In this document: one piece after another, positions 58,856 through 64,000 of the stretch | How positions within the stretch are numbered: the stretch's first letter is position 1 | Layout of the letters: every line of letters starts with the position of its first letter | From: Candidatus Finniella inopinata | GTDB lineage: Bacteria; Pseudomonadota; Alphaproteobacteria; Holosporales; Holosporaceae | Assembly (NCBI GenBank): GCA_945888455.1 | Contig: CAMCZV010000004.1 | Span: forward strand, 62,001 to 126,000 | Direction: 5' to 3' | DNA length: 64,000 bases | Notes under the pieces: generated by a model | Told to the model about the DNA's origin: nothing | Seen by the model: the letters and a program-made list of their open reading frames with translations, nothing else | Database searches by the model: none | Translations under genes and position numbers: made by a program

Positions 58856-61435
58856 ATGAATCATTTTACAGATCGAACCCAAGGGTTTTTGCAAGAAGCC
58901 CATCAAAGTGCCGTGCGAAAAGAGCACCCACACGTACTGCCCATCCATGTTTTGGGCGCCTTGTTGTCCGATCCTCAAGGAGGCGTTAGTGCATTGATGA
59001 CGGAGGCGGGTGGAACGCCAACAGATGCCATGGCACAGGTGGCATTAATGTTGGAAAAGCAGCCTGTGGCCAAAAACAGTCAGGTGACAACGTCGCCAGC
59101 ATTGCAAAAAGTATTGATTCAAGCCAAAGATTTTGCGACCAGTTTGGGGGACCAATTTGTCACAGTGGAAAGTGTATTTTGGGGGTTGTTGCAGGATGCC
59201 ACCACAGGAGACATTCTGACCAAGGCGGGTCTGAGGCCAGATGCATTAAAAGCTGCCATTGCCGCATTGCGCAAGGGGCGTACGGCTCAATCGGCCAGCG
59301 CAGAGGATCAGTACGATGCATTAAAGAAATATGCTAAGGATATGACACAGCTGGCTAAGGAGGGAAAATTGGACCCCGTCATTGGTCGCGAAGAAGAAAT
59401 TCGTCGCACCATTCAGGTGTTGTCGCGGCGTACCAAAAATAATCCCGTCTTGATCGGTGAACCTGGCGTGGGAAAAACGGCCATTATCGAGGGTCTGGCA
59501 CTGCGTATTGCGTGCAACGATATTCCCGATACGTTACGCAACACCCGTGTGATGTCCCTAGATTTAGGGGCGCTAATTGCGGGCAGTAAATACCGCGGGG
59601 AATTCGAAGAGCGTTTAAAGGCGGTGCTGAACGAGATTACAGAGGGGCAGGGGGACGTGGTGTTGTTTATTGACGAACTGCACACCTTGGTGGGCGCAGG
59701 AAAAGGCGACGGGGCCATGGATGCGGCCAATATTTTAAAACCAGCGTTGGCGCGTGGTGAATTGCATTGTATTGGGGCGACCACGTTGGACGAATACCGT
59801 AAATACATTGAAAAAGATGCGGCATTGGCCCGACGGTTTCAAACCATCTATGTGGATCAACCCAGCGTAGAAGAAAGCATTTCCATTTTACGTGGATTGA
59901 AAGAGCGGTATGAAATGCACCATGGTGTGCGCATTACGGATGGGGCCATTATTGCGGCTGCAACCCTGTCGGATCGGTATTTAACCGAACGATTTTTACC
60001 AGACAAAGCCATTGATTTAATGGACGAGGCGGCCAGTCGATTGCGTATGGAGGTGCACTCTAAACCAGAGGCGCTGGACGAAATGGATCGCCGGTTGATG
60101 CAATTGAAAATAGAGCGCGAGGCGTTAAAAAAGGAAACGGACGAAGCCAGTATTCGCCGGTTGAAACAATGCCAAAAAGACATTGCGGATCTAGAGGAAA
60201 ACAGTGCGGAAATGACGATGCGTTGGCAAAAAGAGCGCAAAGCCATTTCTGATTTGCAAACACTGAAAACGGACCTGGATCATGCGCGACATGCATTAAT
60301 TCAGGCCCAACGGCAAGGCGAGTTGGCAAGAGCTGGTGAGTTAATGTACAGCGCCATTCCAAAACTGGAAGAAAGCATCGCCAAAAAAGAAGAGGAATCC
60401 CTGTCTGGGGGCACTTTGTTGCGTGAAGAAGTGTCGGACAAAGATATTGCCGCCATTGTGTCGCGCTGGACGGGAATTCCCATGGATAAAATGATTGCAG
60501 GGGAAAACAGCAAGTTATTGAACATGGAGTCCTTGCTGCACCAACGGGTGGTGGGTCAAGAGCATGCCATTTCTGTCATCAGCTTGGCCATACGGCGCGC
60601 GCGTTCTGGATTGGGGGATCAAAAACGACCCATGGGATGTTTTTTGTTTCTGGGGCCAACGGGGGTTGGAAAAACAGAATTGTGTAAGGCGTTGGCTGAA
60701 TTTTTATTCGACGATGATACAGCTCTGTTGCGCATCGATATGTCCGAATATATGGAAAAACATGCCGTAGCAAGACTGATTGGGGCCCCTCCTGGGTATG
60801 TGGGTTACGAAGAAGGCGGTGTGTTAACAGAGGTGGTGCGACGTCGACCCTATCAAGTCATTTTATTAGACGAGGTGGAAAAGGCTCATCCTGATGTATT
60901 CAATTTATTTTTGCAAATTTTTGACGAGGGGCGTCTGACGGACAGTCAAGGGCATGTGGTGAATTTTCGAAATACGATTGTGATTTTAACGTCTAATTTG
61001 GGCAGTCAGTGGCTGAGTGCCGATGTGGCACGTCATACCAAGGCGTGGGAGCATGCCGAGCAAGAAGTTATGCAAACGGTTCGGGGAACTTTTCGCCCAG
61101 AATTTTTGAATCGCCTAGATGATATTTTGATTTTTTCTCCGTTACAAAGAGAATCCATGGACAGCATTGTGCGCATTCAATTGATGGCGTTGCGTAAAGC
61201 CATACAGGATCGCCATATGCATTTTACCATTACGGATCAGGCCATTTCTTGGTTGGGAGAAAAGGGGTACGATCCGGCTTATGGTGCGCGCCCCTTAAAG
61301 CGGGTGATTCAAAAGGATGTGGTTGATCCTTTGTCGACTCTGGTTTTGCAAGGAAAACTGTTGCAAGGGTCGTCGGTTCATGTGCATGTGGCCAATGATC
61401 AACTGCTCATTGATCATCACGGGGGCGAGTCGTAA
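58856..61435 (+). CDS. clpB: ATP-dependent chaperone ClpB
   Basis: 859 residues, normal. ClpB pulls apart aggregated proteins with DnaK. The N domain is followed by AAA1 ([28 protein letters not shown]), a coiled-coil middle domain (about residues 400-520), and AAA2 ([45 protein letters not shown]). No CIRCE or sigma-32 promoter was recognised upstream. Confidence 0.98.
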
Positions 61436-61547: not shown

Positions 61548-61640
61548 GGAGAGGTGGCCGAGCGGTTGAAGGCGCCCGATTGGAAATCGTGTATACAGCT
61601 TAAAACTGTATCGAGGGTTCGAATCCCTCTCTCTCCGCCA
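61548..61640 (+). tRNA. tRNA-Ser (anticodon GGA)
   Basis: Acceptor GGAGAGG/CTCTCC-type stem, D arm TGGCCGAGCGG, anticodon loop TTGGAAA (anticodon GGA), a long variable arm (GTATACAGCTTAAAACTGTAT), T arm GGGTTCGAATCCC and encoded GCCA. A T-run follows at once. It may be an integration site for the accessory genes to its right. Confidence 0.96.
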
Positions 61641-62085
61641 GATTTTTTAAAGAGAACTTTTCTCATGTCTTTTTGTGCTAGCGTTAGCACCCCTCAGAAC
61701 CCCAGTATTCGCGGGCTTTCCAGCGTTTACATCTAGTATTAGACCCGTACCTCGCTTTCTCCAATTTTGTCTTTTTCTCCCCAAAATCTCCCTTTTTGCC
61801 CTCTCTATCTCCGATACATGCGAACACTCGGGTCGAAGGTACGCATGTTCTCAAACCCTTGATTTACCTGGGTTTCAGAGAATCTCCATTTTTTGCTCAT
61901 GCATTTTTTAGAGAAAGATAAAGCGGAGTAGCGATAGGAATTCGAAACGGAGAAAATGAGGTATATCAAGGTATAGAAAGTAGTTTCCACTATCCTTCTG
62001 AAAAGAAATATGTTATGTTTACATATGTTATGCGTAGCTAAATTTATTTAACAGGAACGATGACTATTATATTGAGTAACCAATA
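61641..62085. other. Gap between tRNA-Ser and the APH-like gene
   Basis: No convincing gene. GTGCTA/TAGCAC form a small hairpin near 61676. ATATGTTATG is repeated at 62008-62017 and 62023-62032, just before the APH-like gene, and could mark an operator or promoter region. No integrase or transposase motif was found. Confidence 0.5.
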
Positions 62086-63102
62086 ATGCTAATAAAACCT
62101 AATCTCAAAGACGAAGAAATCATTGCTTGTTTACGGGATGCCTATGGACTGGATATAGCAACCGTTTCATTTCTGCCTCTTGGTGCTGATTTCAATACGG
62201 CTGTTTATCGCGTGACAACCACTGACGGAGCAGACCACTTTCTTAAATTAAGAAGCGGTAAGTTTTTAGAGGCTTCGGTCTCAGTTCCAAAATATTTGGC
62301 TGATCTGGGTATCAAACAAGTGATCCCACCTCTTGCAACCAAAACAGAGCAACTTTGGACAAGTTTGGCATCCTTCAAGGCAATTCTGTACCCTTATGTC
62401 GAAGGCCGTAATGGCGTTGATACCAAACCATCAGAAGATCAGTGGACCCAATTTGGGGAGGCCATTAAAAAGCTTCACAGCACCGATATTCCTGCATCAA
62501 TAACAAAAGATGTGCCACGGGAGACCTTCTCTTCTAAATGGCGCGAGACCGTCAAAGCGTTTCTGATACGCATTGAAAGTGAGGTTTTTGAAGAACCTGT
62601 TGCTGTAAAAATGTCACTGTTCTTGAAATCCAAAAGTAGCGAGATCCTTAAACTTGTGGAGCGCGCTGAAGAACTTGCGATCACGATTCAAAAACAACCT
62701 CTCGACTATGTTTTATGCCACGCTGATATGCATGGCTGGAATCTATTTGTTGATAAAGAAGAAGCTCTTTATATTGTTGACTGGGATACTCTCATCTTCG
62801 CACCCAAGGAGCGTGATTTAATGTTTATCGGTGCTGGTATTTGGGATAGTGGCCTGACAGCCGCCGAAGAAGAATCACTGTTTTATCAGGGTTATACTCA
62901 GACAAAGATCAATCAGGATGCGATGGCCTACTATCGTTTTGAACGTATTATTCAAGACATCGGCGACTATTGTGAATACATCTTTCTATCCGATGAAGGT
63001 GGTGACGATCGGATGCAATGCTTTGAACACTTGCAGCCTGTTTTTCGCACCTATGGCGCAATAGAGAGAGCGTATAACTCTTATAATACGAGGAAAATGT
63101 GA
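62086..63102 (+). CDS. APH(9)-like aminoglycoside/spectinomycin phosphotransferase
   Basis: 338 residues. The protein-kinase-like APH fold is shown by the catalytic loop CHADMHGWNLF and the metal site VDWDTLIFAPKERDLMFIGAG. Start and overall spacing (LGADFNTAVYRV, YPYVEGRNG, LHSTDIPASI, SKWRETVKAF) recall the Legionella spectinomycin kinase APH(9)-Ia; this comparison is from memory. It would phosphorylate spectinomycin or a related small molecule in the cytoplasm. The stop overlaps the next ATG (TGATG). Confidence 0.85.
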   Translation: MLIKPNLKDEEIIACLRDAYGLDIATVSFLPLGADFNTAVYRVTTTDGADHFLKLRSGKFLEASVSVPKYLADLGIKQVIPPLATKTEQLWTSLASFKAILYPYVEGRNGVDTKPSEDQWTQFGEAIKKLHSTDIPASITKDVPRETFSSKWRETVKAFLIRIESEVFEEPVAVKMSLFLKSKSSEILKLVERAEELAITIQKQPLDYVLCHADMHGWNLFVDKEEALYIVDWDTLIFAPKERDLMFIGAGIWDSGLTAAEEESLFYQGYTQTKINQDAMAYYRFERIIQDIGDYCEYIFLSDEGGDDRMQCFEHLQPVFRTYGAIERAYNSYNTRKM

Positions 63103-64000
63103 TGAGATTATATTTTATAGGAGGCGCCAGTGGCAGCGGTAAAACGGCTGTGATGCCTCATTTAAAAGAGCTTTTGGGAGATGACATCGCCGTTTATGAT
63201 TTTGATGATATTGGCGTACCAGAAGGTGCTGATAAAAAATGGCGCCAAGAATCCACCGAAAAGTGGCTGCAGAAAAGATTGAGCGAAGGCAAAGATGCCT
63301 GCTTGCTGGGTCAAATTGTTTTAGGCGAAATACTGAGCTGCCCTTCAGCCAAACACATAGATAAAATCAACTTCTGTCTTTTAGACGTGCATGATTTCGA
63401 GCGTATTGGGCGACTCAAAAAGCGCAACACCTATGGTGCTGATCAAAACATGTTGAACTGGTCTGCCTGGCTTCGTATGCATCATCAAGACCCGCAGTGG
63501 GGGCCGCATGTTATTCAAGAAGACGCTGCAAGTATCATGGATTTTACCAAGCTATCTGCTCTTAAAAGCTATGAAGAAGTTGCGAATGTAAAAATCCTCG
63601 ATACAACCGACCTTGCTTTGCATGAAGTTGCAGGGGAATTGGCAGATTGGGTCAGATCATTTGATATTACCCCATTTCATGTTGTTAAAGTCCAACCACA
63701 TGAAGTTGTTGTTATAGAAAATAAAATAACCTCCTACAATAACAGCAAAGTACCATTCATTCAGAAACAACCTTTTATTAATTTAAATTTTTGTATAAAG
63801 GATGATAGCGGATTAATTATTGCAGGCATTACTTCTTTGATGTATTGTTGGGGCATGTTGTTTGTCGATATTTTAGCCGTAGACGAAAAATATTATAAAA
63901 ATGGTCTGGGTAGTAAACTGCTTAGTCATGTAGAAAATGAGGCTAAGAAACTTGGGGCAACCCTGGCTCATCTAGATACCTTTGATTTCCAGGCGAAAGA
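63102..64000 (+). CDS. P-loop kinase-like domain fused to GNAT acetyltransferase (3' end outside window)
   Basis: At least 299 residues, open to the window edge. The first about 190 residues begin with RLYFIGGASGSGKTAVM, a Walker A of small-molecule or nucleotide kinases, and include VYDFDDIG and CLLDVHDFERIGRLKKRN. From about residue 200 (FHVVKVQPHEVVVIENKI) a GNAT domain follows, with LFVDILAVDEKYYKNGLGSKLLSHVENEAKKLG containing the acetyl-CoA-binding Q/RxxGxG/A-like turn (KNGLGS). One protein would thus carry a phosphotransferase-like and an acetyltransferase unit. GAGG lies before the ATG, which overlaps the APH stop. The substrate is unknown. Confidence 0.75.
   Translation, partial: MRLYFIGGASGSGKTAVMPHLKELLGDDIAVYDFDDIGVPEGADKKWRQESTEKWLQKRLSEGKDACLLGQIVLGEILSCPSAKHIDKINFCLLDVHDFERIGRLKKRNTYGADQNMLNWSAWLRMHHQDPQWGPHVIQEDAASIMDFTKLSALKSYEEVANVKILDTTDLALHEVAGELADWVRSFDITPFHVVKVQPHEVVVIENKITSYNNSKVPFIQKQPFINLNFCIKDDSGLIIAGITSLMYCWGMLFVDILAVDEKYYKNGLGSKLLSHVENEAKKLGATLAHLDTFDFQAK

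Follow-up and report, generated by a model that had tools for sequence, protein, structure and literature searches.

An overlapping pair of genes, the first coding for an APH(9)-like kinase and the second for a P-loop kinase-like domain fused to a GNAT domain, stands at the head of a 9.15-kb segment bounded by repeats of the 3' end of a tRNA-Ser(GGA) gene in a reduced Holosporaceae endosymbiont. We consider it probable (about 0.72 for the explanation as a whole) that the pair heads the cargo of a tRNA-Ser element and is exchanged among protist-associated bacteria, and that it modifies drugs or xenobiotics. The window, by which we mean the whole 64,000-base stretch that was analysed, covers bases 62001-126000 of contig C4; the host genome comprises 810,702 bases (~811 kb) and belongs to the same family as Holospora obtusa, H. 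undulata and H. curviuscula (G005-G007). Obligate endosymbionts whose genomes measure less than a megabase should have little capacity to acquire genes. Small-genome endosymbionts nevertheless still swap biotin and other operons across bacterial orders, and the carrier of these operons is at issue (PMC13134042).

Insertion site and ends of the element

The sequence-only reading of the window had taken the tRNA-Ser gene and the gene-less gap behind it for an insertion boundary and had proposed looking downstream for a repeat of the tRNA 3' end. That repeat was found beyond the window as an exact 17-bp match (Table 1). The two copies of TCTCCGCCAGATTTTTT lie 9,150 bp apart and are the only ones in the whole 811-kb genome, with none expected in shuffles; the core shared by the eight right ends compared is TCTCCGCCA. 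In one genome of the same genus (G002) the site is empty, the tRNA-Ser running directly into the sequence found here past the right repeat, and in a second (G001) different cargo stands behind the same left end module at the same tRNA-Ser (L029); the clpB-tRNA-Ser order is kept in both. The insertion boundary is therefore borne out by the flanking repeat, the empty site and the conserved end module. The gap does mark the boundary, but it is not empty sequence, since it consists of a conserved non-coding module, here called LEFT.

Table 1. Features of the insertion site, the tRNA-Ser element and the gene pair (window positions; those past 64000 are window-equivalent positions on the extended contig)
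Feature	Position	Strand	Remarks
clpB	58856..61435	+	ORF of 859 aa; chromosomal flank left of the insertion site
tRNA-Ser(GGA)	61548..61640	+	ARAGORN; integration target
17-bp flanking repeat TCTCCGCCAGATTTTTT, left copy	61632..61648	+	last 9 nt of tRNA-Ser plus GATTTTTT
tRNA-Ser element, in-window part	61632..64000	.	remainder at equivalent 64001-70798
LEFT end module, non-coding	61649..62044	+	core 61649-61955; several families have it at tRNA-Ser 3' ends
33-bp conserved motif of LEFT, ACATGCGNACACTCNGGNNGAAGGTACGCATGT	61816-61848	+	inside LEFT module
APH(9)-like kinase	62086..63102	+	338 aa; PF01636, catalytic motifs intact
P-loop kinase-like domain of fusion	63102..63671	+	residues 1-190
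GNAT domain of fusion	63678..64000	+	runs on to the stop at equivalent 64100
Element beyond the window, genes on same strand	equivalent 64001-70798	+	methyltransferase/TspO remnant, TPP riboswitch, thiE-thiM-thiL-thiD-tenA, hipB-hipA, RIGHT
17-bp flanking repeat TCTCCGCCAGATTTTTT, right copy	equivalent 70782-70798		beyond the window

LEFT fills the ~310-400 bp between the tRNA-Ser and the APH gene and recurs at many loci of the family. It was detected in 8 of 385 Alphaproteobacteria genomes from several families, in all eight at the 3' end of a tRNA-Ser (GGA, GCT or CGA); distant matches stop after about 307 bases, past which different genes follow. The module adjoins tRNA-Ser in Jidaibacter, where it is accompanied by the pair, and in Sarmatiella, where it is accompanied by the fusion. 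Within the order of Legionella santicrucis, 5 of 143 genomes carry LEFT, two of them with tRNA-Ser(GGA) on the contig and one with a RIGHT-repeat-LEFT arrangement; this crossing of classes rests partly on metagenome bins, which could be misassigned. Searches of plasmid and phage collections with LEFT matched only the tRNA itself, and the LEFT motif had no match in viral contigs. Considered as a structured strand, LEFT yields weak scores (z of -2.0 as RNA and -2.7 as DNA).

The opposite end module, RIGHT, is near-invariant in eight loci and ends in AAACYGATCTCCGCCA. It abuts LEFT at a single shared repeat in H. obtusa, on two contigs of H. curviuscula and in one Legionellales genome, and such junctions of RIGHT, shared repeat and LEFT point to elements standing in tandem. 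On our reading, a 9.15-kb integrative element would have inserted into the 3' end of tRNA-Ser(GGA) with the pair leading its cargo, and the copy in the window keeps both ends of the family, LEFT on the tRNA side and RIGHT ending in the copy of the tRNA 3' end.

The notion of a mere local hotspot of unrelated genes was also considered, and was abandoned in view of the recurrence of the same ends at many tRNA-Ser sites. RIGHT and its homologous right ends hold a conserved open frame of ~40 codons (L005:11650-11770) ending in NMTIPPQFGVG, an ending that is also present in a Legionellales genome and in G029, a genome from another family; the frame had no PHROG match. A 24-bp minisatellite of 10.8 copies (L005:11938-12196) follows closely beyond the right boundary of the element.

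The kinase and kinase-acetyltransferase genes

The first gene had been read as an APH(9)-like kinase, and profile and structure comparisons agree: its product matches PF01636 at 59.1 bits against a cut-off of 23.2 (E 7e-16), and among solved structures it lies closest to 3i0o, the spectinomycin kinase of L. pneumophila (E 2e-68), with 34% identity across 326 aligned residues. In the alignment to 3i0o the protein keeps the HxDxxxxN motif (CHADMHGWN), DWD as the metal-binding DxD motif and the ATP-site Lys (FLKL). It misses the cut-off of the curated APH(9)-Ia model NF000052 (266.7 vs 680 bits), a model of the 'exception' type intended for one enzyme. APH(9)-Ic is functional though only 33.75% identical to APH(9)-Ia (PMC9868417), so the distance from 3i0o does not exclude spectinomycin activity here, nor does the comparison prove it. 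With APH(9)-Ia (3i0o; NF000052) and APH(9)-Ic the protein shares full-length homology, catalytic motifs and a protist-associated host lineage; unlike APH(9)-Ia, from which its identity and model score set it apart, it is usually encoded in an operon with a P-loop kinase and is a candidate spectinomycin kinase. Phosphorylation of spectinomycin is a plausible activity on these grounds.

The fusion gene starts at ATG 63102 inside the TGA of the APH gene (TGATG), which confirms the one-base overlap first seen; an alternative GTG start upstream at 63099 would make the overlap four bases. When the contig was extended past 64000, as had been suggested, the gene proved to be intact, with no frameshift, a stop at window-equivalent 64100 and a product of 332 aa. 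Its composition of a P-loop kinase-like and a GNAT domain was likewise upheld, with the P-loop half scoring just under the profile cut-off for AAA_18 (27.6 against 29.4 bits) and its Walker A, GASGSGKT, invariant in 19 relatives. The GNAT half matches PF00583 (25.1 bits vs a cut-off of 20.7) and has 1y9w as its nearest solved relative (E 7e-26); the acetyl-CoA motif (R/Q-x-x-G-x-G/A) reads Y-K-N-G-L-G, with the glycines kept and a first-position Tyr that most fusions of the same type share. Structure models, made for the whole fusion and for its P-loop domain, are of low confidence (pLDDT 64-68), with a clear fold match for the GNAT half only (1y9w) and no relative of the P-loop domain identified from them. 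One scan of named genomes returned 22 relatives, viral contigs yielded none of the fusion protein, and the P-loop domain also exists as a stand-alone protein (L027, L082, L088-L091).

The same pair occurs in other genomes, with the same gene order, the APH gene directly upstream, and an overlap at 11 loci. The overlap, one base in the window and elsewhere four (ATGA), is present in Ca. Jidaibacter, one gammaproteobacterial MAG, L. santicrucis, L. worsleiensis, L. sp. km772, H. curviuscula and four more MAGs (Legionella-like, Proteobacteria or Finniella); in H. undulata the genes are adjacent and cut by a contig end. H. obtusa has the two genes on different contigs. The APH is 76-89% identical in the other pair-carrying loci, and both genes are under purifying selection: measured against the window genome across 11 relatives, dN/dS is 0.12-0.18 in the APH, and in the kinase domain it is 0.09-0.25.

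The pair has also been transferred recently. Compared with L. santicrucis, the APH is 80.5%, the kinase domain 89% and ClpB 53% identical; the APH and kinase domain are 89% and 94% identical to those of Jidaibacter, and for ClpB the identity to H. obtusa, of the same family, is 62%. The pair thus lies far above ClpB in identity; ClpB is a single marker, but the difference is large and indicates that the pair moves horizontally. Isolate genomes, those of L. santicrucis and L. worsleiensis, are among the evidence that the pair crosses classes. We infer that it is exchanged between protist-associated Alpha- and Gammaproteobacteria.

The tight coupling on which the sequence-only reading had built stands, since the overlap is conserved, and the pair is probably translated as one unit. 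Neither of the two outcomes that this reading had named as counting against a joint function, genes never found together in other genomes or a frameshift in the second gene, was seen. The proposal of one substrate or one defence fared less well: PADLOC returned no match, the APH gene is often found with an S66 (LD-carboxypeptidase/MccF-type) gene that replaces the fusion or accompanies it (L046, L047, L048, L025), and the histories of the paired genes are partly separate. In L. worsleiensis-type loci the identity is 79-85% for the APH but no more than about 72% for the kinase domain. There have been swaps of the GNAT partner as well, the Legionella and Finniella fusions carrying another GNAT (about 30-35% identical) and their loci often having a separate adjacent GNAT gene closer to the type in the window. 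That a GNAT recurs behind the kinase though the GNAT itself changes argues for a linked function.

Two further arrangements of these domains were seen. In L. santicrucis a single chain of 475 aa combines the kinase with both GNAT types, in the order kinase-GNAT-GNAT (L075:6001-7428), and in G001 (C51; L029:1490-2161) a GNAT of the same family is fused to an N-terminal domain that by eye resembles DUF1653, its last 40 residues being near-identical to those of the fusion in the window, as after recombination.

Cargo, prophages and mobilisation

The cargo genes are arranged in operons in which stops and starts overlap; the open frames of the thi genes are intact, and the TPP riboswitch scores above its cut-off. 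Between the fusion and the riboswitch, the beginning of a methyltransferase gene is joined out of frame to the last part of a TspO gene (L005:5098-5683, window-equivalent 64097-64682), a joint that is a deletion scar in the cargo. In G003, 56 bp are 98% identical to the TPP riboswitch region (L070:5157-5212), whereas the surrounding thi genes are only ~75% identical.

Related elements are accompanied by other genes, of which kynureninase, trpD, trpB, prsA, bioB and bioA were checked against Pfam and the remainder named by eye from translations. A complete-looking biotin operon lies beside LEFT and two tRNA-Ser 3'-end repeats in G001 (C32; L052:3580-8991), and a kynureninase-trpDCFBA-prsA operon with an ABC transporter reaches LEFT in H. 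curviuscula (G007, C114; L060:3971-10336); the latter resembles the kynurenine-recycling operon of Chlamydia caviae. The only tryptophan pathway mentioned in the Holospora genome paper is a partial one (PMC5911502). Metal-resistance genes (by eye) are the cargo in G029 and G368. Near RIGHT there is often hipA, as here, or Fic (H. obtusa, H. undulata, H. curviuscula C147, Legionellales L137 and L140), which are possibly addiction genes. The genes at L063:1733-9249 on H. curviuscula C107, read by eye as non-ribosomal peptide/polyketide synthesis genes, a thioesterase gene and one resembling a phosphopantetheinyl transferase gene, run up to a RIGHT-LEFT junction; they may form a natural-product cluster, here in a symbiont that lives in the nucleus.

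The 9.15-kb element has no integrase or recombinase and no recognisable phage gene, whereas at least three members of its family hold a prophage with a serine recombinase. In G029, from another family, the order is LEFT, a large serine recombinase, DUF2924, a complete-looking tailed prophage, metal-resistance genes, RIGHT, TCTCCGCCA and chromosome, and the complete element measures ~52 kb. Over ~35 kb this prophage shares 86-90% identity with the one behind LEFT at tRNA-Ser(GCT) in H. undulata, and it is mostly 81-86% identical to a copy at tRNA-Ser(GGA) in G368. Comparison of L103-L104/L117 with L106-L107 shows the prophage flipped in G368 relative to G029, with LEFT still beside the tRNA. 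The recombinase-less copy in the window may thus represent a non-autonomous cargo element that depends on mobilisation in trans, or what is left of a phage element after the loss of its body.

It is possible, if rather doubtful, that the prophage is instead an independent visitor to tRNA-Ser islands and that LEFT and RIGHT belong to a separate tyrosine-recombinase element. Repeats of tRNA 3' ends are typical of tyrosine recombinases, while serine recombinases usually leave none, and both the reversal in G368 and the variable distance from LEFT to the recombinase (0.7 kb in G029, ~6 kb in H. undulata) fit such a visitor. Inspection of the ORFs of the complete G029 element, however, revealed no tyrosine integrase, the serine recombinase being the only recombinase noticed there, and the prophage and LEFT occur together in at least three families. 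Nor does the genome of the window hold an extra tyrosine recombinase: its two Phage_integrase matches both lie outside the element (with no Resolvase match), and nine of ten genomes of the order likewise have two each, the tenth having none, a number that we take most simply to represent XerC and XerD.

An element of the kind we favour, integrated at a tRNA and related to phages, belongs with known cargo elements of that description. Like tRNA-targeted islands and cis-mobilisable elements, it sits at a tRNA 3' end between direct repeats, accretes in tandem and lacks a recombinase in the window copy; unlike them, its family has a long conserved non-coding left end, is specific to tRNA-Ser across several bacterial orders, and includes relatives with serine-recombinase prophages between the same ends. 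Prophages with a large serine recombinase and DUF2924 offer a second comparison, the same gene set being present in G029 and H. undulata, and both terms occur in a Wolbachia paper (PMC11376236). From these prophages the family differs in its tRNA-Ser site between LEFT and RIGHT and its host-benefit cargo, and the element in the window also in having no phage body. The family appears to be undescribed in the openly licensed literature that was searched.

The BOOM biotin operon has moved among Paramecium symbionts, and a 2026 paper leaves its carrier open while listing candidate mobile elements (PMC13134042). The biotin operon of G001, beside LEFT at tRNA 3'-end repeats, resembles this case of nutrient operon transfer in protist symbionts and makes the tRNA-Ser element a candidate carrier for BOOM-type transfers. 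Related elements with other cargo in Holospora, Rickettsiales and Legionella-like bacteria suggest one vehicle for symbiont gene swaps. Going further, and only tentatively, a single tRNA-Ser-specific, phage-related family across Holosporales, Rickettsiales and Legionellales might be a main carrier of nutrient operons (thiamine, biotin, kynurenine-tryptophan) and xenobiotic cassettes, its recombinase-less copies relying on relatives or helper phages for movement in trans. The element brings nutrient provision, drug-modifying enzymes and a prophage into one system, and its conserved ends provide a searchable tag for one carrier, which opens the question to genome scans and excision assays.

Predicted function of the pair

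Elimination and homology together make the inactivation of an aminocyclitol-like antibiotic or another xenobiotic the most likely function of the pair. The substrate phosphorylated by the APH would be an aminocyclitol-like antibiotic or some similar hydroxylated xenobiotic. The kinase-GNAT protein would modify the same compound or one that occurs with it, which may shield the symbiont from its neighbours inside the host cell. Among the genes that accompany the pair are acetyltransferase, S66 peptidase, NUDIX, methyltransferase and GFA-type genes, a combination that would be typical of detoxification; the S66 type includes microcin C immunity. Judged by sequence, the kinase and kinase-acetyltransferase pair may form a further branch of the resistance-enzyme family.

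A role in metabolic salvage, such as phosphorylation of choline, thiamine or another host metabolite, seems to us unlikely. The APH fold does include choline and thiamine kinases, a thi operon under a TPP riboswitch neighbours the pair, and the APH gives weak matches to ThiK and choline kinase models; the thiK match, however, reaches 15 bits against a cut-off of 299, and the spectinomycin kinase family is the best match by far. In the other loci no thi genes were found near the pair, thiM standing only beside the stand-alone kinase of L090, and this occurrence of the pair without thi genes makes a thiamine-related function unlikely.

We regard as equally improbable that the element is an ordinary decaying prophage or genomic island remnant whose genes no longer matter to the host. 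Broken genes are indeed close by in the methyltransferase/TspO joint, APH remnants lie on contig C8, and frameshifted or stop-ridden APH copies occur in G001, G002 and G007. Both genes of the pair are nevertheless intact with dN/dS well below 1, and the 811-kb genome has kept intact thi genes and a riboswitch over its cut-off.

An anti-phage or toxin-antitoxin module is very improbable: GNAT toxins exist, the P-loop domain weakly resembles zeta-toxin (E 0.007) and hipBA or Fic genes stand at the right end of tRNA-Ser elements, but the zeta match is under its cut-off, PADLOC recognised no known defence system, no antitoxin-like small gene lies beside the pair, and the APH and kinase genes are also found apart.

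Further copies of the APH gene were seen in other settings. Decayed APH copies lie upstream of murD in three same-genus genomes (L006:1143-1446; L048:1435-2495; L049:7688-8647) and are an older resident copy, preceded in G001 by GNAT and S66 genes. In L. adelaidensis, an APH gene (78.7% identical) follows an AAA-family ATPase gene on plasmid NZ_LR134433 (L094:8337-10020), which is 365 kb in size and typed as mobilizable.
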